64,000 nt of DNA from assembly GCF_037975245.1 (NCBI RefSeq), contig NC_092567.1, positions 18,154,376 through 18,218,375 on the forward strand, written 5' to 3'. This stretch comes from Apostichopus japonicus. Taxonomy: Eukaryota; Echinodermata; Holothuroidea; Aspidochirotida; Stichopodidae. Below the pieces are notes generated by a model. It worked only from the letters and a program-made list of their open reading frames with translations, ran no database searches and was not told where the DNA came from. Shown here piece after piece: positions 1,910 to 62,262 of this stretch (positions are counted from its first letter, which is position 1; every line of letters starts with the position of its first letter). The translations under genes were made by a program, and so were the position numbers.

Positions 1910-2087
1910 CACGATGCCATTTTTCCAAAGTATTCGCCACATCCTTCCTCCCCATAGTATTGTAGAAGAAATCCCATAGGTTGCGGGCATCTACGATGTC
2001 ATTGCCTTTGTCCTTGGTATGTGTCTTGTATATTATCCATGTCGGACTCTGTTTACCCAATGAAGTCAGCGAACGTCTCCAGATGTC
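1910..2087 (-). CDS. Death-domain paralogue, exon 2
   Basis: Encodes 59 residues plus one base of the next codon and is preceded by a TTTTGATAG acceptor and followed by a GTGAGT donor. It contains GKQSPTW and later NLWDFFYN, aligning with RRSPTW and KLWYLLYF in the plus-strand gene. Length (178 bp) and end phase are identical to exon 2 of that gene. It is too short and too divergent to be found by length alone. Confidence 0.75.
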
Positions 2088-5000: not shown

Positions 5001-6325
5001 CTATATATTTAATATATTCGTAGCACACCACGCTGTTTCCACTCTGCTTTATATGTTAATCTCCAGCAACAATCTCAATCTACTATTAGACTTTCTCTTG
5101 GGACGTGTCCCCCATACAAGAACCCAACCACGTTACAGTAGCTAGGTAGAAGCAGGTAAATATGTAAATTACAATGCTGATCAGTACGATAGTAAACAAT
5201 GTTGGTACAGTATCATCAGAGTGACCCAATTATTATGTTTCCCAAGATTTGAAAAATTTTGTATGCCCTGTACAATGTCCAATATGTGTGCCATTGTGAA
5301 ACAATCAGCCAATTGACTACTGTATGCATGCAATCAATTTTAACCAGATCAGTCAATATGGACTTGACGTAATGTACCAGAGCAAAGGTGACTAAATTAT
5401 CGAACTGGGTCAGTTTCAGGCCTTTTAAAAATGTATGGATGATACAGTAACTAATTATGTACAGTATGTAGCACAGAGAATTAACAACGTGTGTAGCCAA
5501 GGAAAAAATTTTGGGAAGCTTGGGGTTACAGTACTTATCTGCAGTCCCGACAGAATGGCACCATGGCAGAGTCAAACCACAACCTTACCCATGGTCCACC
5601 CCAAGGCATGCACCCTTGAATAGACTTGTTATCTCACGTCAGTACTGTAATCGATCCCTCCTCCCCCCCACCACCCCCCCACCCTCCCCCCCATCATATG
5701 ATATGTAAAATACCTGAGCTCCAATATGGATAATCTCTTAAGAGCGAAAGGTTTCTACCACAACACACTACAGGTGGTGCAGAGCCTTTGCTTCCAATGT
5801 CAACGGAAGGTTGTTGATAATGTTACAAATTCAACAGATCAGGCCAGTTTCTTCGACAAAATTACTTTGTTTTTACATATATATATATAGTATGTTGCAT
5901 ACAGTGTTACTACAAAACTTTATGTCAATCTTTCGCTTTTCACCTCAGTTGTAAACTGCAAGTACTAGTTTAGCTCATTAATTAAAGCAATGTATACATT
6001 TCATTTGGGACATTTTGAATGGATGGTGCCAGGAGAAAGGGGAAAGGTTCCCCACTAGGTTTTTTTTTTTGCTCTTTTCAATTCCCTTTTTTTTTCCCTA
6101 CAAAGTTAGGATAGAGACTTACACAATACAAATTATAATTGCACTTACATCGAGGTCGATTGTACGACAGTTAAGAAGGAGGGAACCAAACTCTCGCCAA
6201 CTTCCTCGAAATTGCTTCTCATTGTCCAGTTCCCGGCCTAACTCTTCCAGGAACTCTTCCGTAAGTTCACCCTGACCTTCCAGAGGGCACTTGCTGTAAA
6301 AATCTTCTTCACCGTTACAAGCCAT
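1910..6325 (-). CDS. Death-domain adapter gene, 5' part (paralogue of the plus-strand Death–SEFIR gene)
   Basis: Two exons are visible, 6149–6325 and 1910–2087, joined in phase 0 across a 4.06-kb intron. Together they encode about 118 residues forming one Death-fold domain. The second exon carries an SPTW motif followed by a helix with LW, as in Death domains. By eye, about 27 of 41 residues at the end of exon 1 match exon 1 of the gene starting at 16737. Both introns fall at the same place and phase, and exon 2 is 178 bp in both genes. The start at 6325 has A at -3 and G at +4; an ATG three bases upstream is possible. The C-terminal exons must lie left of the window or be lost. A role in immune signalling is inferred from the paralogue. 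Confidence 0.75.
2268..3185. repeat. 29-bp minisatellite in intron 1 of the Death-domain paralogue
   Basis: About 31 imperfect copies of a unit that runs CAATGTACTACAGTGTACTG and then TTCACTGTG. Each unit contains CAGTG and CACTG arms about seven bases apart, so it can fold. Because 29 is not a multiple of three and the unit lacks in-frame stops, the array is open in all three plus frames for hundreds of bases. Variation is mostly T/C and G/A changes at fixed positions. Confidence 0.95.
3186..6148. other. Rest of intron 1 of the Death-domain paralogue; no gene seen
   Basis: Contains short TACTGTACAGTA-type runs just after the minisatellite (about 3300–3340), a set of inverted GCGTCC words at 4138–4200 (TTTGCGTCCC, GGACGCAAG), a pyrimidine-rich stretch near 4330–4420 and a C-rich tract near 5655–5695. 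No exon matching the paralogous gene was found here. Confidence 0.6.
6149..6325 (-). CDS. Death-domain paralogue, exon 1
   Basis: Encodes 59 residues from MACNG to TIDLD. The core LTEEFLEELG is nearly identical to VTEEFLEELG in exon 1 at 16737–16889. The splice donor reads GTAAGT directly after the Asp codon, as in the paralogue. The open frame extends 22 codons further upstream, but that extension has no counterpart in the paralogue. Confidence 0.75.
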
Positions 6326-9300
6326 CATAATATTTCTTTCATCTTTGCTTGCTAGGTATCTCAAGAAATGTACAGCTACTTTTTTGATGACCAACTGATA
6401 TCCTTTAAGATCATTTAGTGTAAAGGGCGTCTCAGTTCATCTCTTTTAAAGGTCCTTTCCAAAAAACGAACTCATCTGCAGAGATCAATGATAAAAAGTT
6501 CAGGAAGAATTTACATAAACAGTATCATGACTCATTTGTGATATCTTGCAAGTTGCAAACCACAACCAAATTTACAACAAATTTCAAATTTCGAAAAATG
6601 CTGCAAAATCACCAGACAGCACAGCAAACTAAATTCCAGTTCAACAACACAAACACAGCTGTGTGTATTTATGTTTAAAGATTTAATTTGTTAATCGAAT
6701 TTGGAAAGAAACTTTGAACTGCCGCCTGTCTCCCTTTGTCACAGGAAGAGATCAGAGCACAGGTAGTCTGAGAGAGGACGTCATGGCAACTGTTTCATCA
6801 GGAGGGTATTTATTTTCTTAATTTATAATTGTTTTAATAATTTATAATCAATTTATCCTTGAAATGTTATACTTTTAGAAAGTTTGTTTAACCGTCAATT
6901 TTTTCTGAATGTAGAATTTTATTACACTATAAAGATAAAATACATTCTTTGTTGCTATGATGATATCACTTTTCATAACTCTGCTGATGCCAGAAACATT
7001 AAATACATTCAACAAAAAATTAATAGATATTTCCCCTCGACAAAATGTTATGAGGGTACACATGTACATACATGTATGTGGTTCAGACCTAAAGGCTAAA
7101 GCTCAGAATATTGCCAGCGATTAAACAAATAGCATGGAGAGTGCCAAATGCAGGAACACTTCCCAAAAAGTCTTCACCTTCAATAGCTTATATACACACT
7201 ACTGTATGAACAAAGAAACACTCCCATTATTAAAACTTTTAGAAAACTCCTTACGAGGGGAGGTAACCAACCATGGAGAATTCTATGAAGCTATTTCAGG
7301 GAGAACTTTGCAATAAGTTAAGAGACCATAAAATGACACAATTCTAAAGATTCCATTGCACACATATTTAAAATATTCCTCCTTCCCAAACCATCTAGGG
7401 CAATTTTTGGCTGTTGATACCTCAATCCAATGTCATACAATGAGATACAAATGAAACAGCCAAGGTACAGCACCACTAACTACTAAGCCCTACTTGTAGA
7501 GTTTCTAGAGATTCTTTCTGGTCAAGGCCTTCCACATTTTGTTTCTAGCCTAGATATTTACTCATCAAATCGATCTTAATTACTCTTCGTTAAGTTAAGC
7601 TGCCATAAGAAGTAACATTATTCAATGTATCGACTTTGTAAACTTTCGTTATTGAGAAGGATATCTGCCTAGCAAGTACGACCTATACGTCATTCTTAAC
7701 TTGTTTGTTAATAATTTACCTGTTCTATGTTAGGCCTTGGCACAACCACTACTAGGCCTATGTACTAAGCTCAAGTTGGCTAACAAGGAGTCGGGGCTCG
7801 AGGCTAGACCTGCAGCTATGTACTGCATACTTTGCTACTGTTTCTAACATACAACTGGAACATGGAAGTCATAATGCACTCTGTTATGAAAATTATCGTC
7901 TAACTGCAGAATACTGTCTTCGTGTAGCCTTAGTGTACCGGAGGGAATATGATGGAATGACGTTCACAGCAACACGTACAGTAAGCCTAGAAACCTTGTA
8001 CCTAAAACACAAGCCTATGGAATTGAAATCTAGCATAACTGTCGCAGCACTAGATCCGTTACTTGCAAAATACTTACACTTTACGTTGTAAATATGTACA
8101 GGAGAACCACATCCGTAATAGAAACCAGAACGTTTTCGATCTCCTACAGAAATATTTTATACTTAAAATAAGAAATTCCCGGGTTAAATCGTAGAATCCA
8201 AATATGATATCAGGACCAGTTACTGTAAGACACTCCGAATTAAATGCTGGTCCGCAGCATACCTAATATACCAAGGTAAGTAAAGATACTAGCGATGTGT
8301 GTAACGTTGTTGTTGTTCTACGTACGGTTACTTCCTGTTAATTCTTATGAAGAAACCTGTTGCCATTATCAGACCATCAAATATGCTACGTCTGGTTCTT
8401 CATGGTCAACAATGCAAGTTACCGTAACATTTATATCTCCTCAAAATCATTGAATTTTACGAGGAAATCTGGGAATTAATTAAGGTTGAAAACTTAGTTG
8501 GTGTTCATAGGTTAGCTTTAGTCGAATTGAGTGTTTGATTGGGGGCCAGAAGACAGAATGCTTCTGCCAAGTTACGATATGTTGATGGTTCACATTATAA
8601 TATGAAGACACCATGTCCCGCGTAGTGTGCACTTCCTTTTCGTCCTCGGCAGGCATATGACCTATGGAGGTTCAAAGAGGGAAGAACCTGTAATTTAGGA
8701 CATTTTTGGAAGTGTTTTGTCGTCCACCCGGGAACTCATTTGCAAACGTTGGAGGTACTTACGAAAACTTACGGTTGGATAAAATATCTCCAGCTTAATT
8801 CTTAGCCTTAGTGTTGCATAATTATGCTAACAATTCGACGTCTACTGATGACACAGAATGTCCTTTAATTAACCAAATGGTCCCGGTTCGTTCTTCAAAT
8901 GCTGAGTGGTTCTCATGTCATCAGTGGCATGGTTCATTAATTTTTTAAACCACATGAAATTATTGCACATGCCCACTCCTCTTGTAGACTGAATAGGTCT
9001 ATGTACATCATGGACTCACGTTCAACTTATCATTTTCCCCGGCTGTATATGATACGACAGAAACAATAATAATAACGATAGGAATGACACAATATATTGT
9101 CCGCTATGTATAGGCGATGCCGAGATGCGATAAATCAAATCAAAAGGAGTTCAAACCCTGGTCGATCTCACAAGAGGTCCTTTGGGGGTAATAAGTTTGT
9201 TTGTAAAGAATAGACACTTTTTCTCCCTTTTTCTTCTTTCATTTTGCTTGGAAAAGTTGTCTATGTTCAGCCAGGGAATTGCTGATAAATGTAGTCTTAT

Positions 9301-16360: not shown

Positions 16361-16640
16361 ACTTGTGAGTTAATGCACTGTTAACGTAGTACTGTTAACG
16401 TTTGATGTAGGTGCTTCTGTAGTACTATAACGTGCATCCTATGCATACAACTTGTGAGTTAATGCACTGTTAATTAGGCACTGTTAACATACTGTTAACA
16501 TTGACCTAGGTGCTTCTGTAGTACTATAACGTGCATCTTATGCATACAACTTGTGAGTTAATGCACTGTTAATGTACTGTTAACATTGACGAAGGTACTG
16601 TACCTCTGTAGTACTATATAACGTGCATCTTATGCATACG
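16361..16640. repeat. Three tandem copies of an 89–99-bp unit just upstream of the Death–SEFIR gene
   Basis: Units start at 16361, 16450 and 16549 with ACTTGTGAGTTAATGCACTG and end with TAACGTGCATCTTATGCATAC. Each has one to three GTTAAC-type words and a GCTTCTGTAGTACTATA-like word (third copy variant). The array ends about 97 bp before the start codon, so it overlaps the likely promoter or 5' UTR. Confidence 0.9.
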
Positions 16641-16736
16641 ACTCTACCGTACAGTGCCGTCTGGTGCGACCAATGCTACGAAAATTTCACAGTCATTCCA
16701 AGTTGAGGCGCAAGTGTAAAGTACAGTAGTTACAAG

Positions 16737-16889
16737 ATGGCTGTCCAGTGTCCAGTAAGAGGGATTGGAGAAGTCACGGAAGAATTCCTTGAGGAATTGG
16801 GCAAGCGACTAGATAATGAGTCTAATTTTATTAGATCTTGGAGGAATTTTGCGACCATGCTTTTGTCTTGTAGTAAGATTGATCTTGAT
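16737..16889 (+). CDS. Death–SEFIR gene, exon 1
   Basis: Encodes residues 1–51. The ATG at 16737 has A at -3 and G at +4. It ends KIDLD followed by a GTGAGT donor, phase 0. It matches exon 1 of the minus-strand paralogue. Confidence 0.85.
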
Positions 16890-19800
16890 GTGAGTATGTG
16901 TTATAGCTTTTCTATTTAAATACTGTACAAAGTTGATTTGATATGTCAACATTGTCAGTTGTAGATGTGCAGATGGGGCAAAGTACTCTTAATATTTCTC
17001 ACTTCCTGTTAATAAGTTCTGCTGATCGACAATTTCAGTACCAGGTTTAAAGTTCAGTATAGGTGATATTTTCACGTTCAAAGTTCCCCATGTGGATTGC
17101 AGTGTATCTAGACCTGTACGCATTGCGACTAGATCACGCTGTGATCACAGTTTAATATTTTCCTTTTTTTTTTTTTTTTTTATAAATAGCAATTTTATTA
17201 TAATTATATATTATATACTTATAGCTAGCCTTATTATACTGTACTTGTAAACCTTGAGTGAGGTAGCTTCCAAGGAAGAGGGCATTTAACCAGAACAATG
17301 AGGGGGGGGGGGGGGGCGGGGAAGGGGAGGGGAGGTGGACCATGCTATAGGGAGATTTTGGCATGTACTGATGATGATGGTGATGGTGGTGATGATGATG
17401 ATTGTTTTTATTATTTTTGTTTTATTATCATTGTTTTTGGTATTTTTATTTTTATTAATATTGTTGTGTGACGACTTCCCTTAACAATATAAACAATAAA
17501 CATTATGCTTAACTGAATTTGTAAAAGAAACAAGAGATTCAATATATGTTTTAATTCAGAACAATGTTTGTATAACGCACAATCACAAAGTAAGTTGGAA
17601 TGTTTCACAATAATTACATCATTCATTACGGTTGTCTATTCTGTACAGTATGTGAAATGAAACGGGCCTATATGGTCAAGCAACAGTACTTATAATGACC
17701 AATACTGTTTTGCAAGTTTATTGTAGATAGACCTAAAAGTACAGTATTGAAAATTTCATCAAATTCAAATTCAAAACTCGATCTGCATGATCATCCTATC
17801 CATTATTCGCTCCTGACGAGGATGAAAGGGTTGAGAGACGATCTAATCTCTTGACCAATTTATTAAATTATTTATCCCTGCCCACGACAGGATTATTACG
17901 GAAAATCCACGAGAGATCCGATCGGCAGGCGTAGCCCAACATGGGAAGTTTGGCAAGTTTATATTCGACAGAGGGGAAGAAAAGTTGATATAGCTAAGCT
18001 GTGGTACCTGCTGTACTTTCAAATGCAGAGAGAAGATATTGCTTGCCTATTGGTGGATATGCATCATGGTAAGCTGCAAACTTTATTGGGCCTAAGTTGC
18101 AAATGGAGGATATTATTAAAACTAATTAGCTTATAAACCAAGCTTACATGTATGTAAGTAGCAGTGGGATGCCAAGCTATGGTAACTTGCATATCATGAA
18201 TCTCTTCGGGTTACAGTGATCAGTGACACTTTAAAGCAAAATAAAATAAAACTGTTAGCAAACTGCTTATCCACTAGAGAGCCTGTGTAAGAGAATGTGT
18301 AAAAGTAAGTTAGCCTGTCGTTTCGATCCTAGCAAGATCTTCTTCAAAGGCAAAAAAAAAAAATTAAAAAATTCATAATTTCCACACAAAAAAAAACAAT
18401 CATGAGGGGCCTTTCTGCATCCATCATCACTGCCTTTCTTTAATCCTTCTAACTAATTAACTTATCTATAATCTGTGCATGTTTTTGTCCCTTCTGTTAC
18501 TGTTACTTGTCATTTAACTTTTGAATTCGGGTTACAGTGATCAGTGACACTTTAAAGCAAAATAAAATAAAACTGTTAGCAAACTGCTTATCCACTAGAG
18601 AGCCTGTGTAAGAGAATGTGTAAAAGTAAGTTAGCCTGTCGTTTCGATCCTAGCAAGATCTTCTTCAAAGGCAAAAAAAAAAAATTAAAAAATTCATAAT
18701 TTCCACAAAAAAAAAAACAATCATGAGGGGCCTTTCTGCATCCATCATCACTGCCTTTCTTTAATCCTTCTAACTAATTAACTTATCTATAATCTGTGCA
18801 TGTTTTTGTCCCTTCTGTTACTGTTACTTGTCATTTAACTTTTGAAGAAGATCCTGCTAGGATCGAAACATCAGGCCAACTTACTTTTACACAACTAATT
18901 AACTTATTATGTTCCAAAAGTTGATGGAGAAAGATTATATGTATAGTAGGGACAAGAACTCTTTATGCCGTTGCAATAAATATATTGTGCTCTCTGATAT
19001 AGCTGGCTAAGAAGTCAGTGACTGGATAATATGATGCTTGAACTGGGTGTTTGGGCAGAGATAACCTATGACCTTGATGATGTAATTGCATGGTCGCTAT
19101 GCTGAAACCCTCAACCAGTTGGAGACGATTTCATTATCTTTTTGAGTGTAAGGCTTTTGAAAATTACTGTACACTTTATATGAAGTCATATTTGTGGAAT
19201 AGACCGAACACATTAAAAATGGAGCAATTGCTTCAATCAAGTAACAGAACAACCATTTCCAACCTTGTTAAGCAATTTGCAGAGAAATTTACTACAAATT
19301 TCAGTAGTTTCTTGCCATAGGCATTGTAAACTAGATTTTTTTTTTCTTTTTTTTTCATCAACTTATTTAAGCATGTGAAGCCATTTATTCTTTTCCATTT
19401 CGCATTTCCGTCCACATTTCTTTTTCTTCTTATACTGGGGCCTGGCGCCACCATTTTCCATGTATACATTTTTTTTTTTTTTTTTTTAAATTCTTTTTGT
19501 CAACGTTGTTGTCATATGAACTTTGTAAGCATATTTGTACTCTACATACCTCACACGAAGGAGGTGCACAGAGATTGAATAAACTTGTAAACTTGTAGCT
19601 AGGATAGTGGGCTGGTCCATTGCTATGCTAGGGGTGTTGGTATATAATGGAATGGAAGATGACACATATAGACACATAGATTAGTAGCTCAGGCAGTTTT
19701 GCTTGAATCTGTCAACTGTTTTTAACTGTATGCTGGTGGTTAATATAAAAGAACAGAACTGAAAACTATCAGGTCAGATTGTGTTTCTATAGATATCATG

Positions 19801-22800
19801 TTATGGGTTTTTGAGAATTGCCCCATTAAAGGGTGTGAAGACTCGCGCAAAAAGAAACGTCTAAATGCCGGTAATTTGACCTAGTTTTGAATGAGGTGTA
19901 ACAGAAGTGTTAAACACCACCATCATTCCCAGAAAATACACACACAGCTTGCTACTGTACCTTCGGTAATTAGACACTAGGGTACAGTCAGTATATATAG
20001 CTGCGGTCCATACCCACAGCACAGTGTCCAAACGATACAGCGATGGACATCTCAGGTCCAGCTAAAGATAACAAGGTATCACGTTTCATTACTGTCTGCA
20101 TTTTGTAGCGACACGAACAAAACATCACTTTCAAGCAACAGAAAGTGAACTTTTTCAGATGGTCGCACACGGTTTGGAGTGATCAAGTCTTCAATTCCTT
20201 TAAAGCAATTAGTTGCTGTATTGGCTTGCTTTGTAGTGGGTCAATGTAGGGTTCTGATTTAGGCGCTGAAGGGTGAAGTTACGCGGATAAAGTTTCTTAA
20301 TGCATGCACCACCTAAAGTAACTCCTCCGCATGGGGTAAGTTTGGAAGAAATCAAGCGTTTATGACATAATTAGCGATATCACAGAAATTATTGCCCATC
20401 ATCATAAAACTGTTCCTATATCCCTGCAGAAGGCCGATTGCTTCTGCAGCCAGCGAGGGGTGATGCAGGCGGTCCACATCCCTTGGGTCCAAGTCCTACA
20501 TCGCACGAGGATCGCTATCAGGAAATGTCCGATATAAGAGGTCCATCTATCTGGTCGTCGAGGAATGAGCAATCTCACAGCTATGGACCACTTGCTTCAG
20601 CGCAGAAACAAAATATAGGACAGGGAACTTTCCAAGAATCGTACGGTAGGCTTCTTTTCCTCCTGTCAGTTTTATCCTTGTTGTAGCTAGCGCACTGTTG
20701 GGGGGGGGGGAGGGTGCAGGAACATAACGGTGGGGGGAACGAGTTTAATATAATGATACTTAAACTGAATGCATGCAATGTTTACAAGCAATGTACCTTG
20801 TCAAACCACTCTTATTCATAGTTATGATTTAAATTTAAATTTTCAAGTAATTATGAAAACGAAAAACCCCCCTCCCCTTCCCCCCTCCCCCTGCCCAAAT
20901 CAACAAGAAAGGAGAAAAAAGTGATTAAATGAAGACTGGCTGAAATACATAGCTATTGATATCCACCCACTTTGGCATAAATTTATCTTGTCATCGTTAC
21001 AAGGTTTGTCATTCGAATGTTAATGTATAACGCATGTCCCACAGCTGCCCAAGCGTTATGGTATGTAATCTCTTGGGTCATGAGCCTGTCACAGTCATCC
21101 TCTGTTTGTGATTCAGGTGGTACCCTGCTGAGTTGCCCTCAGGGAATGCCTGGCTATAGCCATTACTCTCTTTCTGGAAGGAACACGTCAGATAGTGGTT
21201 CATCGGCTAGTGGTACATCGGGTAGTGGTTCATCGGGTCGTGGTTCCTCCGCTGACACTGTGGTACCGTCACGAGGCTACAACGTCGGACAGCGCCTCAA
21301 TCCCAGCTGTGCATTAAACCTCAATTGCTCTCAGGGAGCATGTGACTACTGTGAAGCTTTGCGAGATCTGTCTGAGGGGAACAACGTCGATCACGAACCG
21401 ACCACTCCAAAGAGAAATAGAGACGGTGCCCATCCATCCTCACGAAACGATATGGATCTGCTCCCCGATCTGGCTCAGCTGTACCTCAGCGTTGGTGAGT
21501 CATCTGTCTTTAGCTCATTCTGTCATTTTTATCAAAAGAGGTTTGATTGGTCTATGACCACCACCCCATTCCCGTTGATCGTTTCCAACTTTTCGTGACA
21601 TTTAATTTTAATACCACCATTAAAGTTTTAAGTGAAAAACTCCCATCTCAATATCTTGTTACTATAACACAAAATGTGTGTGATTGAATGTAAACTACTT
21701 TTGACTGGCTAAACACTCTATCACTCCAAAAAGTGGATCAAAGTATGTGATCTGTTTATATCACCTTGGCAGTGGTTCAAATATTTTACTCTTTTTTTTT
21801 TTTTGAAATGTTATTGTTTATTTAGCCTTGAAATGTGATACATTTGAAAGTTATATATATCTTAGCTCTACACATTGGCTCTGTCTTAGAATTCCATCAA
21901 AATGCACCACTTTGTAGAAATGCTCCTAGAATTCATTAATGAAATAGCTCAAAAAAAACCCCAAAAATTCACCTCAATTGACACCATGACGATGTTATTC
22001 AATTTTAGCTGTTGCCAGATACATTCGCAAAGCATCACCAAATTTGACAAAAAAATCATATCTTCAGCATATAGATATGCTAAATGGATATGGTTTAGGC
22101 CGAACGATGCCAAACTCTTTCAACGATTTATCTCATTGAGAGAATAGATCTTCTTACATTCTGCCAATTTCTCACATTTTTTTTATTGTTTTGAAGAATT
22201 TTGCATGATAAAAATGAAAAACAATAAATCATTGCACATATACTGTACAAAGCACTTTGTCAGTGAAATGTTCTGCATGTGAAATGTACTACGGTCCGTA
22301 TATTACGTATTCGTCCCTGTAGAGACTTCCAGACCCATGAGTGATATGAGCATGTATCAAGAAGACTTCCAAACAGGTGCCCATTCAGCCCGGACATCCG
22401 GAAGAAACAAATCAGGGCCACGAGATCTAACATTCCAACACGGTCCAATGAGCCGGGCGTCGTACCTGCCGGAAGGTAACTCGTTGCCCGGTCGGGAAAA
22501 AAACCGCCGCAAGAGACGGCTGAATAATGCATGGCGACGTCAAGATTCACAAGGCAGGAGTTACGTAACTTCAGAATCGGATGACAATATGTCCCAGGTC
22601 ACAATGATGGATACTGGACAGTTCTTTGAAGCAGACCAAGAATTTGTGAGAACACAGACTGGGTCTGCTGCAGCTCTGAGGGGAATTAAAGAATCAAATT
22701 GTAAGTACATTTTTTTTGTTGAGCACATTAGTTTTTTATTTCCTTGGTTTCTTTTATACTGCAGTGTGTTCCTAAATGTCTGGAAGATTTATCGCCGATT

Positions 22801-25800
22801 GGTTTGTCTTCTCCACTCCCAATCTCTCCATCCCTTTGGTAATTCCCTTCTCTCCCCTCCTCCCTCTATCCAAATTTACTCTCTCTCCCCCCTCTCCCTC
22901 CCACCACCTTCTTTTCCTCTTCTCTCTTTGCCGTTCTCTCCTATCCTAGCCTATATCCTACTGCATAACCTCTCCCCTCCCCATCCTATCCCCTCCTCAT
23001 CCTCAATAATTAAAATTGTGTTAAAAGTTACAATTTAATTATACATCATATGTGCTTTACCTGCCGTGTTCCCTCCCTCCCCATCCCTGCCCATCCAAAT
23101 CCTCTCCTCTATCTCTCCCTACTCTCTCTCTCCACCCCTCCCCTCCATCTCCATCTCCTCCTCCTTGACCTCTACCAACCCCATCCATAATAGTTTCTAT
23201 TGCAAAGATATTACAAAATGGATAGCATCAGGGTCCAGATTTTTTGCAATTTGTTACAATTTGAATTTCAAAATCATACGTGCCTCATCTGCTATACGTT
23301 CAATACATTCTGGCCAAACAGCACTGCCCCCAAAAAGAAAAAAACCTGGAAAAACTTGAAAACAGATGCAAATAATAAAACTTCTTTGCTGATAAAAATT
23401 AATGATGGCTCTGTCTCTCTCACTTGATATTTCAGGCCTGGTGGGAATAACATTCCACGAACAAGATGCAGCCCTAGCAAAGAGAGTAAAGATGCATCTA
23501 AATTCTGAAGGATGCAGGTCTGTGTTGATGGACAAGAGCACGATGGGTCTGTTTGACGAGGTTAGAATTGATTTTTTTCTAGAATTGATTAAAAAAAATT
23601 TGATAATTTTAGAGTGTTTTAGGAAAAGGGGAGTGGAGTGAGGAAAACAGTGGTATGAGGAAGGAGTTGGGAGGGGGGGGGGGGGGAAGGGTGGTCAAGC
23701 GAAATGGAAAACAGTCAAAGGGAGTGAAGACTTGCGCTGCACACAAAGAAAGGTCTGATACCTTTAATCTCATTTGAAAATGCGCCCTTTAATACCACTG
23801 CCATAACAGTTTACCTGCCTCGGGCATTTGAGTAGGCTCTCCTAGTAGATCAGGGAAACTGTGTGAGCTGAGGAAGAGAATTTTCCATGCTCCTTCCCTT
23901 TGCTAGGAGGCATGGCGAATTGATTACTTATGTCACACAGGCTAATGTACCCGACTAATAACCTTGAAAGGTGCAGAAGTTGCCAGTGGCGAAAAATGAA
24001 CGGCAGTCTTACTAAAGGGCGGATTTTCGAATGTGACTTAGTTTCGAATGAAGTGTAACAGAAGTGTTAGACACCACCAACGATCCCAGAAAATACACAC
24101 ACAGCTTGCTACCGTCGGTAATTAGACAGTTAGTGTGCAGTCAATACCTACAGCTACGGTCAATATCCACAACACAGTGTACATAGCAGCGATGGACATC
24201 TCAGCAGGGAGTTGTTATGGAACTCCCTGATCTCAGGTCCAGATAAAAGATAACAAGGTATCAAGTTCCGTATACACTCTGCTTTTAATAGCGACAAGAA
24301 AAAACTTTTACTTGCAAGCAAAGGCAAGTTAACTTTTTGAGTGGGCGGCACCCGGTATGGGGCGAGTCTTCAATGCCTTTAAGAACGGAATTAACATCTC
24401 CTGTTTGCATGTCTGAATGAGTATTAACCTTGGCGGAATGGTAGATAAAAGCAGTCCCCATTGTCCATATCCTGTTCCATTGAATTTTTACCCCGGATAT
24501 GCTGAAAGATAAAATGAATTCTTTGCTGCCGTATATAGTCACTGTGAGGCAGTGAGTTTTCTACCATGTGAACTTAATTCCTCACCCATTTTGCCGTATA
24601 ACTAGCAACTTGTCATGGGAATCTTAATATAGTGTATTGATTGTAAGTTTTAAGTCAAAGCTGCATTCAAGCATGTCCGTAGCAAGTTTGCTTTGGCTTT
24701 TTGGTACTCAACACAATGCTGTTTATATTGTAATAGTCAACAGTGATACAGTTTGTACAGTACTGTATGTGGTCTACATTCATGCAATAATCAAAAGTAC
24801 ATTGTATTAGATAAACCCATGCTATATTATCACAGACTTCAGTCAAAATCTATTATCAAACACTTAGTCAAAATCATAAGAAAGCAATCAAAGTAAGTTA
24901 CAGTGTGTTAAACACAGTGAGCACATCTGTGGACTTTGTTCAGGCTTTCGTGGATTCTCGATCAGCCGCCCAAGTTAGATAAACAAGAAAGTTTAGCAAA
25001 CTTCTATTGGAGCTTTTACATTGTATGCTAAGGGTGGTCTGGCTTTGTGTGTGAAAAAAAAAGTTAGAACAGAGTGAACACTCTTGGTTAGGCTTCATAA
25101 TTTAGCCATAAGGCATATATGCTCGTCAGGATTACCATCAGGCTAATTACTTAATTGTTTGGGTCTTCAAAGAGTATGAAATGCACACGAACAATGCAGG
25201 TGAATAAAGAGCTCTTTTCAATTTTTACCACCGTCTGTGAACTCCTTCCCTATGATGAACGGCACAAACTTTTTGAAATATTCTAATAAAAGAACTGTTA
25301 GTTTGGTTCATTTCCACATATATACATATCTTTCTCGAAAAACATAACAGGCAAAACCTAGACAGCAATGACGACGATATACTAAGCTTCTTGACGCTCA
25401 TCGTTATTCTCAGAATTTAACTGCGATGTCATTCTATTTGAAGGTTTTGGTTTTTTCCCCCCTTCCAAAATTGTTGCACGATGCATTAGCATAAAACTTG
25501 ATAAATTACCAAGTTTGAAACTCTCCAGTTCTGCCCAGGTTTATCTTAATTGTGAATAATCACCTAGGTGTCTGTATTGTTACATGATACGAGCCAGTCT
25601 ACATGATAACAATTACCAGTGACTCTAACAATCTGTCTGTTCATCCGTAACGCAGTTTCGTTTTCTTTTGGGCACAGTCCCGATGAACTTTGTTCTTTAT
25701 GAGGATTGCGAAACACCCTCTAAGGCAGCTTATGCAATGGAGAAGTTCCTGATTTATTAATAGATCCTTAGACCGCAATGTTGACATTTACAGTAAGGAT

Positions 25801-27743
25801 CATGTGCAGAATAAAGAGAGTTGAAAGGTTTGATGATTTAAATCGTTTTGTTTACATAAAAAGCTACAAATATTTCTGTTCATACAGTAAATATTGGCAG
25901 AGACGAACGCAGAATGGCTCCATGGACAGAACTATAATTGCCAATGCACGATCCTTCCTGGCACATGTAAAGCTAGCAAGTTTAACAGCATCACTCTCGG
26001 GGGGGGGGGGGGGGTGCATTTTCGTCACCATTAATAATATTCCAAAGTCCATCCTTCATTAAGGTCATTCTACACTGCACCTTCCAAGTCGCATAATTCG
26101 ACCCATTGAACGCAACTACAATAAAAAATTTCACGTCTGACGACGTCTTCACTCACATAGGGAGTAGTTCAGTGAAACCACTTCAATAGCACACAGCAAT
26201 GGTTAACCGTCACACTAGTTCAAGTATGTTGCGCTACGTACTCACGTTAACACGGTTGAGACTGGGCCCATAACCTATTGGCAGAGACGAACGCAGAGAT
26301 GTGATTTATAGCCACAAAACGACTATAGTCAACTGAACTTCGTAGCCATAAAAGAAGCACAAATGGACTCCAGACTAGATTAAATAGTCAAACACACAAC
26401 TTTAGTTTACCGGTACTTCAAAAAACAATCAATGTGTTTATTCAATCAAGGCTTCTTATCAGGAGGTTTTCAGTGTTTCTAAACACGCAGATCGAAAAAT
26501 CCATGACGGAATATCCAAGTGATATTGCGCAATCGTACAGTAGCACATAAACAATATTTCTCCTTGGAGGTTTGAGGATTTGCTTGCACTTATATACCTC
26601 AATATCATATACGTGTTAAACAGTTAAACATGGTAGGTATAAATGAAAGATAAATAGAAAAACAGTCCAAGCAAAAGTGAACTTCACAAACAGTAAAAGC
26701 CTCACAATTTTCTGCAGTTCTTGGTAAAATATCACGATTTCCATCATATTACTGTACGACACTCTTATACTGGAAAAAAATATGGTGATGTTTTTTAAGG
26801 CTTAAAGGGTGTGAAGACTCGCGCACAAAGAAACGTCGCATGCCGGTAATCTGACCTACTTTCAAATGAGGTGTAACAGAAGTGTTAGACACCACCATCG
26901 ATCCCAGAAAATACACACACAGCTTGCTACCGTCGGTAATTAGACACTAGTGTACAGTCAATACATACAGCTGCAGTCAATACCCACAATACAGTGTACA
27001 TAGCAGCGTGGACATCTCAGGTCTAGATAAAAGATAACAAGGTATCACGTTTCATTACTCATGTCTGCATTTTGTAGCGACAAGAGGAAACGTCATTTGC
27101 AAGCAATGGAAAGTTAACTTTTTCAGAGCGCGGCACACGGTTTGGGACGAGCCTTTAAATCGTATGTATATGTTTCAGTTTTAGTAATGGCCATGACTGG
27201 CAGAAAATTTGCCAGTGCCTTTTATCTTTGTCTACTTGGCAAATACTGTAGCCCAATATTCAAGCTCTGAGCTTGTGAATATTTTGTGGTTGATAATGTA
27301 AACAGGTACCACAATATGCTTCAGTCCGCCACACCTCTCTTTGTAATTGTACAAGCTTTTTGTGGCACAACAATGTGTGTGCCGATTAAACTCAACTACA
27401 GACTTATACTGACAAATATCAAGCCCTGGTGTTACACTTTTCTATCCAACTAAGGCATCCATCCATGCTATACCAAAAGGTCAACACCAAAAGTATTCAG
27501 GCTGTAGGTGTCTATGGTTTTTGTTTTTTTTGACGTTCACCATTCTGCTAAAGGAAGAAAAAGAAACATTTATACATGAAATATGTGTCATGACATAGGG
27601 CCAAGAATATGCAAGAAGGACAGCAATAACTTGTGTATGTATACTGTAGGCCTACCTCATCTATCAGGCATGAGACTCTTCCGCGGAAACGCGGATTTCC
27701 GATTATTTTTTTTTTCATTTTCGCGTTTTTTCTCGTAATTCGC

Positions 27744-27776
<33 letters not shown>

Positions 27777-30700
27777 CGAACATGCTGGACTGTGAAGGGA
27801 AGGAACACCGAATTTGACCAGTGGTGGAATCAAGTAGCACAAAGCAAGCAAAAAAGCCTTTTTTTTGGTTCAAAAAAGCTAATGGATAAATTATACAAGC
27901 AGAAATTCCACACTTTTTTGGCGAGTTACGTGATGTGATAGATTCCATCTAGAGTCCACCATTTTGCATTTAAGCCCTCCTTACCTGACAAAAAAATTCT
28001 TAAGGGGAGGGATTGTCCCCCTCCCCCAGGACAGCGATCGATAAATTTCAGATTTTTTTTCCCCGGCTCAGTCTCATCCCTGATCTATACATAACTTATA
28101 ACATATCACTTTAACCTGTACCTATAATTACCATCTCTTTTTAACTTGAACCTTGCACCCGTTATATATATCTCTTCGTCTTGTGCTAACCTTAGAATTA
28201 ATGTCTTGTCAACATCACATTACACGGTATTTTCACGTTTTACCCAATAACGAAAAAACAAGGGCGTACGTGTCTTCCATTTCTCGGTACATGTATGATG
28301 ACATCATCTGATTAATCTTCCCACTCCATATTTATTTTTCACTGTTAATTCAATGACAACATGTTTGCTTCATTAAATATTGTCTGATACATTTGCAAGT
28401 ACTATAATGGCGGGGCTGGTGGGGGGGGGTGAGTATTTATTCACTGTTAAAGTTAAAAAAAAGTTGAAGGTTTACAGTCTTGTATGAGGCTAATGCCTCC
28501 TCACATGACTTTACAACTTAACCCCTGGTCATTGGTAACTTGTCACACCCACACACCAAAGTGTGCACAATTCAATCAATCTCTCCTGGGACACCACAGT
28601 GCACCACAACCACGTGTCCCCCGGGGGACTTCCCATAGGGTGCAGCCACAAACCGGCGCATGCAACTATATTAACAAGTTACCTAGCAGGTCCCCATTTA
28701 TACACCTGGGTGAAGAGAGGCAATGGAGATAAAGCGCCTTGCCCAAGGACACAACGCAATGATCTGGCCAGGGTTCGAACCTGTAATTCTTAGATCACAA
28801 GTCCACTGCCTTAACCACTTGACCACAACACCCTCCACTGTTAATTCATTGACAACATGTTTGCTTCATTAAATGTTGTCTGATACATTTGCAAGAACTA
28901 TAATGGCTGGGGGGCCCGGCTGGGGGGGCGGGGCTGGTGGGGGTGGGCGGTGGGTATCATCAGTTTGACCTTGGTCGACCATTGTCATCATGAGGGGTAG
29001 GAGAAGTTGACCAGACAATAACCTGGCATCGAGATTTCCAGTCATTTCTGTCTTCCATAAGGGTTGCTAGCTCACACGTACTTTCAGCCCCATGACTGTC
29101 CTCTAGTAGGAAATGCAGGAAGGTTTTATGCCTTGCACCATGCAGGGGTACCATGTTTTGGCTCCCAGAGAATGAACTTGTTGGCTGCTTCTTCTGGGTG
29201 TCGGTGGTAGTGACCAGCTGCTCTAAGTCTTCTTTCTCTGATTTTCATGGACACCTTTGGAAGATCGCCATTAAAGCTGTGTGTTGAGAATCTTCTGTTT
29301 CCAACTAATATCAAGGGCAGCCCTCGGTAATCTTGTGTAACAAGGTCTATGTGGGGGGGGGGGGGTAGGTAGACGGGGATACCTCCTTTCTGTCGATCCA
29401 TTCCCCTTGGGCCACATACAGCATCTCCCACTGGAGGGTGGCTATTAAAGAGATAGGAGGTGAAAATTTGGTTCACGAGGCAAAGACAACATGAAAATAC
29501 CCGGGCATAAGACCACACTGCACAATACCTATTTTGTTTCTAATTATGATTGTTCTTATTTGTTTGTACTATAGATGGATGCTATAGTAGTGATATACAG
29601 CTCTCACTTTAAGAAATCTGTCATTGAGAAGAAGTTTTCTTCCCGCCTCAATTGTGAAAGGTGAGTTATATACATCCAATATTTAGGGAACATGTACTGC
29701 ACATTGTACGAAAACAGTGGCGAAGATAGGGGTATTGGTCAGGAGGGGCGAGAATGGTCAGGAGAATGGCGAGAATGTAGGGGCGCTTTTGACACTATCC
29801 AAGCGGAGCGCCACCACAGGTTGGCGCGTAGCGTACAGAAATTTTTTGAGTAAAGATACTCCCTAGATCGCCGGAAATGACCCTTTCCGGGCCTGGCTAA
29901 TTTGCAGATAAACGAAGAATAAATAGGTGTCATCGCCAAACTACACCATCAAAATGTGACAAATGTCAATAGGTAGATGAGAGCGCAATAAAAAAGTCAA
30001 TAATCGCGAATAAGTAAACAGTGTTAAAGAGCTGAAAAGGGCACCAGCAGTCCATTTGAGTCTTTCAGGGGGAGGGGGGGGGCATCCGCCCCCCTTGACT
30101 GTATGGACGCTCCACCACTGTACAGAAAGCACACAATATCAGATCTTATAATGAACTAGTCTGCCTAATTCGAAAGCTTTTGTTATTTTTTTCTTTTTCT
30201 TTTGGGGTTGTATAAAAATCAGAGACACAGTGTAAAAGGCTGAATTGACCTTGGTAAATGATGTCATAATGGGAGAAGCATTTTGGGCTAGGGTGTGTTG
30301 CAAAGTAAATAGTGCTGAAATCGTCGAGCGTAACCATTTGTACCCGATTTTAGACGTCACAATACATCACATTAGGGGATTATTTGGAAGAATTAAGTTG
30401 TGTATATATACCTCTATATACCTATAGAAAATTAAATAGCCTGAAATCGTCGAGCGTAACCATGTTTACCAGATTTTAGAAAACCTAATAATGGAATAAA
30501 AGGAGTAATTTACAAACTCCTAATCCTATAAGAGGACAATAAATTGAAAGGGATGTATAATTTATGAAATTGTCTGTAGGTAAAATAGCAATTGTCCTTT
30601 TGTACTAAGTTACCATGAAATTGTTCTATGAGGTGTTTATTAAATATATGAACATTGTTGCAAGTTTTTATAATAGCCTACTGACGTAGATTTCTCTCAA

Positions 30701-31166
30701 CTAGGAATAGTTCACACGCTTTCTCATAGCCCCAGAAGTGATGTATAATTAAGAAATTTTCTCTAGACATAATAGCAATTGTCGTTTTGTACTAAGTTAC
30801 CATGAAATTGAACTATGTGTTTCTTAACAACATGGACATTGTTGCAAGTTTTTCTAATACCGACGTAGATTTGCAACAGTTTGCACGCTTTCTCATTGCC
30901 CCAGAGGTAATGTATCATTTTTTCAAAATTGACAAATCCGATAAAGCTCGTTTGAAATTTCTCTCTAACTCTCGCTCTCTGTCCTTCTCGTTAGGAAAGT
31001 CTACAATTTGCTGAAGAATGAATGGAAAAACCACAGCCAGCAAAATCGGAGATGCGTTTTTTACCCCGAGATGGAACTTGTCAAAGGCATGCATATTCCT
31101 CGAATATTTTGGGATCCCCCGAGCAACTTGTTGGCTCTCGGCGTCTACTACTATCTGTTTGAGTGA
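16737..31166 (+). CDS. Death-domain plus SEFIR/TIR-like signalling adapter (eight exons)
   Basis: Exons 16737–16889, 17891–18068, 20430–20645, 21117–21494, 22323–22700, 23436–23560, 29575–29660 and 30995–31166 join without a frameshift into 1686 bp (561 residues). Residues ~13–106 form a Death-like fold (LEELGKRLDNE, SPTW, KLWYLLYF). Residues ~206–229 are Ser/Gly-rich. Residues ~366–381 are strongly basic (KNRRKRR), a possible nuclear signal. Residues ~436–561 resemble a SEFIR domain: VGITFHEQD (box 1), DAIVVIYSSHFKK (box 2) and RCVFYPEMEL…PRIFW near the end. SEFIR domains are found in IL-17 receptors and Act1/CIKS; Death–TIR is the layout of MyD88. The protein lacks a signal peptide and membrane segment, so a cytosolic adapter is likely. 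The SEFIR versus TIR choice was made by eye. Confidence 0.8.
17149..17320. repeat. Poly-T and poly-G tracts in intron 1 of the Death–SEFIR gene
   Basis: A T-run at about 17162–17180 and a G-run at about 17303–17330, with TGATGATGG repeats following near 17370–17400. Simple sequence only. Confidence 0.8.
17891..18068 (+). CDS. Death–SEFIR gene, exon 2
   Basis: Encodes residues 52–110 plus one base. Acceptor CCACGACAG, donor GTAAGC. It completes the Death domain (RRSPTWEVW, REDIACLL). It gives no long stand-alone open frame and was found from the splice sites and by comparison with the paralogue. Confidence 0.85.
18208..18895. mobile_element. Foldback element of the AAGATCTTCTTC family, partly duplicated in tandem (321-bp period)
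   Basis: Copy 1 starts at 18208 and copy 2 at 18529 with the same GGGTTACAGTGATCAGTGAC. They are almost identical through CATTTAACTTTTGAA. Copy 2 goes on to an inverted arm (18843–18891: GAAGATCCTGCTAGGATCGA) that pairs with its own internal GATCCTAGCAAGATCTTCTTC arm. Copy 1 lacks this right arm. Lies in intron 2. A third copy is at 62690–62880. Confidence 0.85.
19120..19320 (+). mobile_element. Possible non-LTR retrotransposon C-terminal relic
   Basis: An open stretch reads FHYLFECKAFENYCTLYM and later EQLLQSSNRTTISNLVKQF. This pattern (H-x-L-x-x-C, then a short helix with L-L-x-S) is common at the C-terminus of LINE reverse transcriptase ORFs. No RT core was seen nearby. Weak, based on pattern memory. 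Confidence 0.35.
19826..20205 (-). mobile_element. GAAGACTCG inverted-repeat element, copy B
   Basis: Runs from TTAAAGGGTGTGAAGACTCG to AGTCTTCAATTCCTTTAAA in intron 2 of the Death–SEFIR gene. It is opposite in orientation to copy A. It shares the ACACACAGCTTGCTAC, AGATAACAAGGTATCACG and TTGTAGCGACA words with the other copies. Confidence 0.8.
20430..20645 (+). CDS. Death–SEFIR gene, exon 3
   Basis: Encodes residues 111–183 in part, with both end codons split. Acceptor CCCTGCAG. Composition is Gly/Pro/Ser/Gln-rich (GGPHPLGPSPTS) with no recognised domain; it begins the linker. The donor GTAGGC is weaker than the others. Confidence 0.75.
21117..21494 (+). CDS. Death–SEFIR gene, exon 4
   Basis: Encodes residues 184–308 plus split codons. 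Acceptor GTGATTCAG, donor GTGAGT. It holds the Ser/Gly run SGTSGSGSSGRGSS and a Cys-containing segment (CALNLNCSQGACDYCEAL) followed by a charged stretch. Likely disordered linker with phosphorylatable serines. Confidence 0.8.
22323..22700 (+). CDS. Death–SEFIR gene, exon 5
   Basis: Encodes residues 310–434 plus split codons. Acceptor CCCTGTAG, donor GTAAGT. It contains the basic stretch REKNRRKRRLNNAWRRQ (possible nuclear localisation signal) and an acidic/Ser segment SESDDNMS. It is also 378 bp long, like exon 4, but the two are not similar. Confidence 0.8.
22820..23190. repeat. Polypyrimidine tract in intron 5 of the Death–SEFIR gene
   Basis: About 370 bases dominated by C and T on the plus strand (CTCTCCCCTCC-like), interrupted by an AT-rich patch near 23005–23050. 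Simple low-complexity DNA; the open frame across it is not a gene. Confidence 0.8.
23436..23560 (+). CDS. Death–SEFIR gene, exon 6 (first half of SEFIR/TIR-like domain)
   Basis: Encodes residues 435–476. Acceptor ATATTTCAG, donor GTTAGA. It carries the predicted first strand VGITF and the helix ALAKRVKMHLNSEG, then SVLMDKSTMG. A purine-rich, G-run-containing intron follows. Confidence 0.8.
23717..24382 (-). mobile_element. GAAGACTCG inverted-repeat element, copy C, with internal insertion
   Basis: Same ends and core as copies B and D, but 666 bp long. About 260 unrelated bases (about 23790–24040) separate the left end from the core, and the GTGACTTAGTTTCGAATGAA part follows them. Lies in intron 6. 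Confidence 0.75.
26803..27159 (-). mobile_element. GAAGACTCG inverted-repeat element, copy D
   Basis: About 357 bp from TTAAAGGGTGTGAAGACTCG to GACGAGCCTTTAAA. The best preserved copy: it contains the GGTGTAACAGAAGTGTTAGA, CACACAGCTTGCTACCGTCG and AGATAACAAGGTATCACG blocks in order. Lies in intron 6 of the Death–SEFIR gene. Confidence 0.8.
27663..28084. mobile_element. Element with ATCAGGCATGAGAC terminal inverted repeats
   Basis: Left end ATCAGGCATGAGAC (27663–27676) pairs with right end GTCTCATCCCTGAT (28071–28084), with one mismatch. Next to the left end is TCCGCGGAAACGCGGA. The interior includes a T-run of about 28 bases. A shorter relative lies at 33535–33702. Confidence 0.65.
28340..28442. 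repeat. Left copy of a ~105-bp direct repeat flanking a SINE
   Basis: Starts CACTGTTAATTCAATGACAA and runs to GGGCTGGTGGG. It is repeated at 28838–28945 after a SINE, with only a few differences and a longer G-rich end. Confidence 0.85.
28480..28837 (-). mobile_element. tRNA-derived SINE, copy 1 (CTTGCCCAAGGACACAAC body)
   Basis: Read on the minus strand, a tRNA-like head carries a box A-like TGGTCAAGTGGTTAAGGC and a box B GGTTCGAACCC. It is followed by a body with the word CTTGCCCAAGGACACAAC (reverse) and a CCATTTATACACCTGGGTG segment. It shares head and body with 49262–49562. Similar sequences are widespread in marine invertebrate genomes (from memory). Confidence 0.75.
28838..28950. repeat. 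Right copy of the ~105-bp direct repeat
   Basis: Near-identical to 28340–28442 (CACTGTTAATTCATTGACAA onward) with an expanded G-rich tail. Too long for a target-site duplication. Confidence 0.85.
28990..29275 (-). pseudogene. Non-LTR retrotransposon ORF, C-terminal relic, frameshifted
   Basis: On the minus strand one frame reads SMKIRERRLRAAGHYHRHPE and LWEPKHG (29269–29129). It is continued in another frame by GAESTCELATLMEDRNDWKS (to about 29028). This order (IRERRLR.AGH.HRH, LWEP, ELATLMEDR..W) is the familiar C-terminal end of LINE reverse transcriptases. The frame break near 29130–29150 shows it is dead. Lies in intron 6. Confidence 0.75.
29575..29660 (+). CDS. Death–SEFIR gene, exon 7
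   Basis: Encodes residues 477–504 plus two bases. Acceptor TTGTACTATAG, donor GTGAGT. It carries box 2, DAIVVIYSSHFKKS, typical of SEFIR and TIR folds. It lies after a 6-kb repeat-filled intron. Confidence 0.8.
29713..30122. mobile_element. Possible inverted-repeat element with ACAGTGG ends
   Basis: Left ACAGTGGCGAAGATAGG and right CCACCACTGT (reverse ACAGTGGTGGAGCGTCC) are similar in inverse orientation. A G-rich interior ends GGCATCCGCCCCCC. No coding capacity. Lies just after exon 7. Confidence 0.4.
30311..30480. repeat. Short direct repeat in intron 7
   Basis: GAAATCGTCGAGCGTAACCA occurs at about 30318 and again at about 30443, each followed by a similar TACC-GATTTTAGA segment. Confidence 0.8.
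30550..30915. repeat. Tandem duplication, ~188-bp period, in intron 7
   Basis: Copies 30550–30738 and 30739–30915 share GATGTATAATT, AATAGCAATTGTC, TTTTGTACTAAGTTACCATG, ACATTGTTGCAAGTTTTT and CACGCTTTCTCAT in the same order. The second copy ends about 80 bp before exon 8. Confidence 0.85.
30995..31166 (+). CDS. Death–SEFIR gene, exon 8 (terminal)
   Basis: Encodes residues 505–561 and a TGA stop at 31164–31166. Acceptor TTCTCGTTAG. It contains RCVFYPEMELVKGMHIPRIF and WDPP, resembling the end of Act1-type SEFIR domains. The protein ends shortly after, so there is no C-terminal extension. Confidence 0.8.
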
Positions 31167-38553: not shown

Positions 38554-38723
38554 TTATTCAAATTTCTTCCTGAGGTATTGTTTAAACACTGCCGGTAATA
38601 TAGACAACACGGCCAGAATTGCCAGAACGATGACGGAGGTCCACGAAACCGCGTCGCCGGTGTGGGTCAGCTGGTAAAGAGTGGTACCGGCCTGGATTGC
38701 CACAAAAGACGGAGGCGCCACAC
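38554..38723 (-). CDS. tmem41b: tmem41b exon 7 (terminal)
   Basis: Encodes residues 239–294 and a TAA stop at 38554–38556. Acceptor TTATGTAG. Contains APPSFVAIQAGTTLYQLT, the last membrane helix and the KKFE C-terminus. It is not visible as a long open frame and was found from splice sites and conservation. Confidence 0.93.
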
Positions 38724-41700
38724 CTACATAATATGAAAGGTAAGTAGGACATTTGGCTAGCGGAACATATATATTATATCTATATATATATATATATCTA
38801 TATATATATATATATATATATATAATTGAAATTGTAGTGAGTTGGCAAATCGAGAACAGTGGAAAAACTTCCAGCCTCCACCGGGAATCGAACCCTCCCG
38901 CTTTATGCGAACACCCTAATCACTAGGCTATGGACGCTGATTGTATGTCCAGAGGTTCAAAACCGGTAAGGAAGGTCGTAATTCCACTGTAGGCATTTGT
39001 CACCAGTATCGAACAATACTAGTTCTGTTTTCCTTGCATGATAAGATCCTTATTTGGTGACAATAATCTTGGTCTGCTTAAAATATCAGAAAAAGTTCCA
39101 CTTTTTGTTACATAGTATATTCATTTTGTTTTTGTTGTTTTCCCGGTGAAGTCTCGACTACATCATTCTAATACAACTTCCATGAAACCATACTTGAGTA
39201 TCACCTCTAAAGTGATGTTACAGCTGTTTAAGCTCTTCTGCAGATATATGCAAACGTCGCGATAATTTAGGAGTCGCTGGGGGTCATGGGTCATGTAATG
39301 TTGACAACAAAAACCAAAAAAGGTTCTAAAATATTAAAGAGAGAAAAACATATTCTTACCCAGGAATGTTCCCAAGAAAAACGGCCACAGTGGTACCTGG
39401 AGTACCGGGGAGGTGATGTTGATGAACCAATTGGGAAGGAACGGAGTTATCCGTAAAAAGATGATGTAATTTAAGAGGTGTTCCCGATGCCGAGCAATCT
39501 GAACAGTGGATAAAAAAGTAAAAGGTTTAACCTTTGGAAAAATAGAGCCCATGTTTCCATTTATGAGCTGTTAGATTATTTAGAGCTTAACATTTAAATT
39601 GATGAAACCTCCTCACATACGACTGGAGTGCATTTCCTCCTTCTGAGACTTCACGATAGATATTAAAACAGTGTTGTTGAAACCAACACAATTGTCAATG
39701 TGCAGTTTGTTGATCACAACCAACAGCGGCAAGAATAAAAAAAAAAGTGTTTTCTTAGAAAACACTTTCAGTCGCTCCATTTCTGACTACTCCTGACATG
39801 TAAAACTTGCATACTTTGAAAATTCAAAGTCTATATATTAAAAAAAATATATATATGAATTTAAATGTAAAAAATTTAAATTTAATAAAATAAAAATAAT
39901 GAATTAAAAAAAAATGTTTTTTCTTCCTCACCCCCAATCCCCTCCCCTCCCTCCTTACCGATCCCACCACATACCCCAACTTCTCCCCTTACTATTATCT
40001 ACTACAAAGAAGGTTGAACCATAGAATATGTTCTTAAGTTGACGTGGTTAATGCCCGGGCCAGTCTTTGAATTCGAAGGCAAATGACACTTAATGCTGCT
40101 TCAAAAGACATGTTGTTGGTTTATGACTGATGCCGTGTAAATGTCGTCTTCGAGTCTCGACAAATGAACGAAAAACCTGAATGCTATTTTAACCGGTGCG
40201 TAGATACAGGTTCTTGTCAGATGGGGTCAATATGCTATATAACCGGTGCATACAAACATGTCCTTGTCAGATGCGGTCAATATGCTATATAACCGGTGCA
40301 TAGTAACATGTCCTTGTCAGATGCGGTCAATATGCTATATAACCGGTGCATAGACACATGTCCTTGTCAGATGCGGTCAATATGCTATATAACCGGTGTG
40401 CAGAAACAAGGCCTTGTCAGCTGGGTCACTATGCTATATAACCGGGGCACAGTAACATGTCCTTGTCAGATGCGGTCAATATGCTATATAACCGGTGCAT
40501 AGACACATGTCCTTGTCAGATGCGGTCAATATGCTATATAACCGGTGCATAGTAACATGTCCTTGTCAGATGCGGTCAACATGCTATATAACCGGTGCAT
40601 AGTAACATGTCTTTGTCAGATGCTGTCAATATGCTACATAACCGGTGCATAGAAACATGTCCTTGTCACATGCTGTCAATATGCTATATAACCGGTGCAT
40701 AGACACATGTCCTTGTCAGATGCGGTCAATATGCTATATAACCGGTGCATAGACACATGTCCTTGTCAGATGCGGTCAATATGCTATATAACCGGTGCAT
40801 AGTAACATGTCCTTGTCAGATGCGGTCAACATGCTATATAACCGGTGCATAGTAACATGTCCTTGTCAGATGCTGTCAATATGCTACATAACCGGTGCAT
40901 AGAAACAAGTCCTTGTCACATGCTGTCAATATGCTATATAACCGGTGCATAGACACGTCCTTGTCAGATGCGGTCAATATGCTATATAACCGGTGCATAG
41001 TAACATGTCCTTGTCAGATGCAGTCAATATGCTATATAACCGGTGCATAGTAACATGTCCTAGTCAGATGCGGTCAATATGCTATATAACCGGTGCGTAG
41101 AAACATGTCCTAGTCAGATGCGGTCAATATGCTATATAACCGGTGCGTAGACACATGTCCTTGTCAGATGCTGTCAATATGCTATATAACCGGTGCAGGC
41201 TTATATAAAGATACTCGTAGCTTTGTACTGTTGTATGACTTTGAAACAAGTGAAAGGAGGAGGGAGAAACTGACAGGGAAACGTTAGACGATGGAAAAGA
41301 GCGAATGAAATTAACCCCTTCTCTGCCACTTTCTGGGTTATATTGATTGACTGAGGTTTGACCCCCCTCACCCCCCCCCCCCCCCCTGGTAAGCTCAGTT
41401 AGTAGAGCGCTGGTCTTGTAACCCTGAGGAAACTGGTTCCAATCCCTTTCTAACCATGAATTTTGTTTGCTCTGTTTCGTTCATTTTGAGATGGGTTGGT
41501 CTTGTGTTGTTTCTCAGTCATTGCAGTACCTCTCCATACACAGCTTAGTATGTGCCTTGTATATGAACGTCACATGTTATCACCCCCAGACATCGATAAA
41601 ATTCACTTACAGCACCGGACCATTTTTCTACCCTCTCGGGGATGTACTTCTTAACCAGCTTGACCCCGACAAGGTGTGACAGAAGATAACAATTAGAAGC

Positions 41701-51337: not shown

Positions 51338-62262
<10,925 letters not shown>

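Follow-up and report, generated by a model that had tools for sequence, protein, structure and literature searches.

The sea cucumber Apostichopus japonicus probably carries an ancient pair of head-to-head genes, referred to here as gene A and gene B, that encode Death–linker–SEFIR proteins of the Act1/CIKS/TRAF3IP2 type. Both genes start within a 64,000-nucleotide stretch of contig NC_092567.1 (NCBI RefSeq assembly GCF_037975245.1, positions 18,154,376 to 18,218,375 of the forward strand), hereafter the window. We computed the gene models, their paralogy and their similarity to SEFIR and Death profiles directly, and likewise the echinoderm origin of the genome: its 16,099-bp mitochondrial contig has nad4L between cox1 and cox2 (Pfam E 1.8e-19, 3.9e-151 and 5.6e-65) and AAA at conserved asparagine positions such as MNNMSFW, both of them marks of echinoderms. 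Invertebrate Act1 ordinarily combines Death with SEFIR; what would be new is an Act1-type pair in an echinoderm.

Two paralogous genes in head-to-head orientation

Gene A is on the plus strand. As the initial annotation proposed, its predicted model has eight exons that join in frame into 561 residues; all introns are GT–AG, the stop codon TGA is at 31164–31166, and the exon phases run 0-0, 0-1, 1-1, 1-1, 1-1, 1-0, 0-2 and 2-stop. Exon 1 (16737..16889) carries the start codon and the first half of the Death-like domain and ends at a GT donor, and exon 2 (17891..18068), 178 nucleotides in phase 0-1 with AG/GT borders, carries the second half. The linker is encoded by exon 3 (20430..20645), exon 4 (21117..21494, Ser/Gly-rich) and exon 5 (22323..22700, with a basic patch), all in phase 1-1 with AG/GT borders. 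It had been put at about 330 residues with a basic patch; the patch is present as REKNRRKRRLNNAWRR, and the linker measures 324 residues (residues 111–434), including 48 Ser and 35 Gly. The C-terminal domain spans exon 6 (23436..23560), which runs from strand A to strand B, ends at a GTTAGA donor and stops short of a helix kept in gene B, exon 7 (29575..29660), which carries strand C with MDAIVVIYSSHFKK in phase 0-2, and exon 8 (30995..31166), which carries the C-terminal part and the stop. The three sequence boxes on which the annotation had based its domain call, VGITFHEQD, DAIVVIYSSHFKK and CVFYPEMEL, are all found in gene A.

The initial annotation treated gene A alone and overlooked the adjacent paralog on the opposite strand. 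Translation of long open frames revealed exon 1 once more, on the minus strand, and we extended the search into flanking DNA (five 10-kilobase (kb) stretches, of which four adjoin the window on its left side and one on its right). By tblastn, exon 1 of gene A matches 6292–6149 with 30 of 48 residues identical (62.5%, E 1.1e-18), exon 2 matches 2060–1914 (34.7% identity, E 8.9e-8), exon 7 matches at about -18.3 kb (E 0.002), and exon 8 at about -19.9 kb (39% identical over 56 residues, E 7e-7), where 0 is the base preceding position 1 of the window. Because the opposite-strand paralog repeats exons 1, 2, 7 and 8, what is seen in gene A exceeds chance. The match of exon 6, at -13.2 kb, is weak (E 0.84), and we accepted it because of its position and the good splice sites that flank it.

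Gene B thus begins at 6328 on the minus strand, 10.4 kb from the start of gene A, and reaches some 20 kb beyond the left edge of the window. Its predicted model has six exons with GT–AG introns that join in frame into 389 residues: exon 1 (6328..6149, placed in divergent orientation by tblastn and phase), exon 2 (2087..1910, 178 nucleotides, phase 0-1), a linker exon (-4467..-4853), and the counterparts of exon 6 (-13154..-13302, including a helix-like stretch, SLSEQERKRKCKSIFKK, and a GTAAAT donor), exon 7 (-18333..-18415, phase 0-2) and exon 8 (-19905..-20097). Phases agree throughout between the two genes, with one linker exon in gene B in place of three in gene A; we found no counterpart of exon 3, and additional linker exons of gene B may have been overlooked. 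The linker of gene B contains PEEGSD, a candidate TRAF6-binding motif, although 190 of 2000 shuffled linkers have at least one such match; the linker of gene A has none. Searching the sea cucumber's own genome with the gene B SEFIR domain returned four matches, all inside genes B and A.

The two genes have diverged for a long time. In the Death region, synonymous divergence (pS) is 0.85 and non-synonymous divergence (pN) is 0.38; overall pS ranges from 0.74 to 0.90, and for the SEFIR exons pN is about 0.5. Synonymous sites are thus saturated or nearly so and non-synonymous sites are not, and the duplication is therefore old, with reading frames that by this measure have long been maintained. 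The Death domain is better kept in gene A than the SEFIR domain.

Several repeats accompany the pair. Tandem repeats with units of 85–99 base pairs (bp) lie at 16375–16643, immediately 5' of the gene A start codon, and intron 2 of gene A holds a 321-bp tandem duplication (18205–18846, 99% matching) that is probably recent. A dispersed repeat has three copies within gene A introns: GTGTGAAGACTCGCGCA occurs at 19833 and 26809 on the plus strand, and 12 bases of it recur on the minus strand at 10562. A neighbouring piece of 25 bases is common to 24104 and 26922, the former belonging to a piece at about 24069–24128 (+). Intron 1 of gene B contains a minisatellite (2267–3168, 29-bp unit, 30.9 copies).

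Assignment of the SEFIR and Death-like domains

The C-terminal domain was assigned by comparing a joint profile of genes A and B with reference profiles. In hhalign, this A+B profile scores 33.9 against SEFIR over 129 columns, versus 18.4 over 13 columns against TIR, a value inside the shuffle range. The comparison through the paralog supports SEFIR rather than TIR, and the original preference for SEFIR holds. Among the references tried, the SEFIR domain of gene B is nearest to human Act1 rather than to the IL-17 receptors, with MyD88 weaker, and it aligns in register with the human Act1 SEFIR (PDB 9ot1 chain E) over about 140 residues. This closeness to Act1 agrees with the suggested link to IL-17 adapters. 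In an eight-row tree, genes A and B fall outside the IL-17 receptor and TIR clades and are not grouped with human Act1.

The N-terminal domain, initially described as a Death-like fold, gains support from the same approach. Against eight Death domains the A+B profile scores 23.5 over 79 columns, a value reached by none of 500 shuffles (maximum 19.1), and against SEFIR and TIR it scores 9.8 and 9.3. Held-out real Death domains score 34–65 in the same test, and we regard the match as weak but specific. Neither protein contains a transmembrane-like stretch: the top 19-residue Kyte–Doolittle mean is 0.82 in gene A and 0.96 in gene B, versus the usual threshold of 1.6. By hydropathy, both fit the layout of a cytosolic adapter lacking a transmembrane segment.

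A number of results weigh against this assignment. The hhalign probability is modest for SEFIR (67.6%) and low for Death (24.6%), and the reference profiles include several provisional rows. No profile match in gene A or gene B passes a Pfam curated cut-off: the gene B domain scores 19.0 bits against SEFIR (PF08357; cut-off 23) and 20.9 bits against TIR_2 (cut-off 28), and a scan of the full 389-residue protein returns only TIR_2 (E 0.004). A Pfam search of the gene A protein, the check that the annotation had proposed, finds neither Death nor SEFIR even at E 10, and it is the A+B profile comparison that upholds SEFIR there; searched alone, the gene A C-terminal domain matches TIR_2 at E 0.13. 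PDB searches with the gene B domain and the A+B profiles return no SEFIR, TIR or Death chain, and the gene A protein draws 15 chance-level antibody rows aligned to its Ser/Gly stretch. Local alignments of gene A to human Act1, IL-17RA, IL-17RB and MyD88 are at chance level (400 shuffles each). For the N-terminal domain, Pfam Death is found in neither gene, Pfam and PDB searches with the Death part of gene A give nothing significant, and pairwise comparison of the Death part with MyD88, IRAK4 and IRAK1 is at chance; the Death call comes solely from the profile–profile comparison. Genes A and B group with human Act1 in 14% of bootstraps of the tree, whose rows do not include invertebrate Act1. 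The linker exon of gene B is a best guess, the highest-ranking of 11 splice-scored candidates of which several overlap. Searches of the sea cucumber genome with the SEFIR family and with human Act1 also returned no match, but this silence carries little weight because they missed gene B itself.

MyD88 also has Death first and a TIR-superfamily domain last, and the pair could in principle be a MyD88-like Death–TIR adapter for Toll-like receptors whose TIR has diverged. The domain of MyD88 is a TIR rather than a SEFIR and its similarity to gene B is weaker than that of Act1, and we consider this reading improbable.

The exon 6–7 junction of gene A and the missing SEFIR helix

The SEFIR domain of gene A had been taken as complete, which does not agree with the junction of exons 6 and 7. 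Counted by hand, the distance from the end of strand B to strand C is 11 residues in gene A, versus 22 in gene B and 23 in human Act1, and the junction omits a helix found in both of the latter. The gene A frame stays open past the GTTAGA donor (GT at 23561), and this continuation (23561..23613, plus strand, VRIDFFLELIKK) can be aligned to the part of gene B exon 6 that holds its helix and donor, but at the position of the gene B donor (GTAAAT) gene A has no equivalent GT. Adding the VRIDFFLELIKK stretch raises the TIR_2 score of the gene A domain from 13.3 to 20.8 bits; when gene B is the Smith–Waterman reference the gain is modest, as 387 of 6220 intron stretches score at least as well as the continuation. 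A longer exon 6 reaching the GT at 23633 was tried and rejected (donor score 1.5, no TIR or SEFIR match). As modelled, the gene A SEFIR is thus incomplete: either the protein no longer has the helix, or the transcript is spliced in a way that the DNA does not suggest.

The missing helix might instead be supplied by an unseen small exon in the 6-kb intron, which we consider most unlikely. With the thresholds used, that intron holds three phase-0 candidates, of which the one at 24836–24892 (TSVKIYYQTLSQNHKKAIK) is best supported by its splice sites. Including it, however, makes gene A less similar to gene B (scores of 139 versus 149, and 65.7 versus 70.5) and yields 15.1 bits against TIR_2, where simply extending exon 6 yields 20.8; the gene B model needs no such exon, as its exon 6 carries the helix. 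Another explanation is that gene A derives from gene B as a relic, decaying or no longer coding, whose frames survive but which has lost its exon 6 donor and whose SEFIR no longer folds. Past 23561 there is no GT before 23614, although the donor of gene B falls within this interval; the one in-frame junction of fair quality in gene A leaves the helix out; and when the SEFIR of gene A is compared by itself, no SEFIR tested matches it above chance. All eight exons are nevertheless open with splice sites, the pS and pN of the Death region indicate frames kept for long, and the donor may have been lost only recently, or its absence may be a matter of assembly or allele; we therefore hold a relic to be unlikely.

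Returning to the two genes as an Act1-type pair, gene B, with its full-length SEFIR, probably serves as the functional adapter. For gene A a specialised or modulating role is more likely, because its Death domain is better kept than its SEFIR and because, with the only in-frame GT donor of fair strength, it lacks the helix between strands B and C. One form of this, which we put forward as a rather doubtful proposal, is that the echinoderm kept Act1 in two roles: gene B would be the IL-17 adapter that activates, and gene A an ancient, SEFIR-crippled decoy, which would use its Death domain to join or block the complex without docking on the receptor. The logic of such a decoy resembles that of the short MyD88 isoform.

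Expression, complex formation and signalling output of the two genes we infer from homology. Once an IL-17 receptor is activated, the SEFIR domain would dock on the receptor's own SEFIR tail, and the Death domain would gather Death-domain proteins of the IRAK and MALT1 types. NF-kB-type signalling would then ensue, after the model of C. elegans ACTL-1.

Other features of the window

The remainder of the window contains features apart from the pair. A type I hammerhead ribozyme (Rfam) at 51876–51918 on the plus strand scores 39.6 bits versus a gathering score of 34 and is possibly part of a mobile element. Exons matching PLP-dependent enzymes (PALP) at 54494–54790 and 62034–62522 on the minus strand (E 1.8e-4 and 5.2e-11) were read as a cystathionine beta-synthase-like gene. 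One of 124 open frames scanned matches the VTT domain (E 3.2e-8), and a candidate for this frame, at 38557–38919 (-), gives no match at 0.01. Minisatellites occupy 40181–41197 (50-bp unit, 20.4 copies) and 53708–54368 (24-bp unit, 27.5 copies). There are three tRNA-like matches, at 59311–59383 (+, 46.2 bits), 28760–28832 (-, 33.4 bits) and 49490–49553 (-, 29.0 bits), of which the weaker two may be tRNA-derived repeats.

Act1 in echinoderms

The combination of domains had first been presented as an unusual MyD88-like layout, but it is already on record. According to Flynn et al. 2020 (PMC7190641), Act1 orthologs of most non-amniote lineages have the Death–SEFIR, MyD88-like layout, and the Death domain was lost in amniotes; a further report describes a MyD88-like protein of Trichoplax in which Death and SEFIR are combined (PMC6321704). 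The sea cucumber proteins share the N-terminal Death and C-terminal SEFIR with non-amniote Act1/CIKS/TRAF3IP2, and differ in that there are two divergent neighbouring copies, that the SEFIR of gene A is diverged and helix-short, and that the host is an echinoderm. Human Act1 shares the SEFIR register with gene B but is an amniote Act1 without the Death domain. The Trichoplax protein has the same two domains in a placozoan, and C. elegans ACTL-1 is an Act1-like IL-17 receptor adapter, acting probably via SEFIR, with IRAK and MALT1 homologs as partners (PMC7190641); both are likened here by their published descriptions.

A 2017 study, which names sea urchins and the sea star Patiria, reports that the echinoderm genomes it examined lack Act1, whereas Act1 homologs were readily found in hemichordates and invertebrate chordates (PMC5457136). 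The same study gives the purple sea urchin 35 IL-17 genes and two IL-17 receptors, and proposes an Act1-independent route. Its main text contains none of the terms holothur, Parastichopus or sea cucumber, and our literature search, which covered sources other than subscription journals and gene databases, found no later report of an echinoderm Act1. Three exons, separated by introns about 5 kb and about 1.5 kb long, encode the SEFIR of gene B, and Pfam and open-reading-frame searches could miss it because it lies below the cut-off and is split over these exons. Introns are no obstacle to transcriptome searches, which the 2017 study also used (PMC5457136). If the reading of genes A and B is true, an Act1-type pair in a sea cucumber would revise the published absence of Act1 from echinoderms; the adapter would then not have been lost at the base of the echinoderms, and it may have been overlooked in other members of the phylum.
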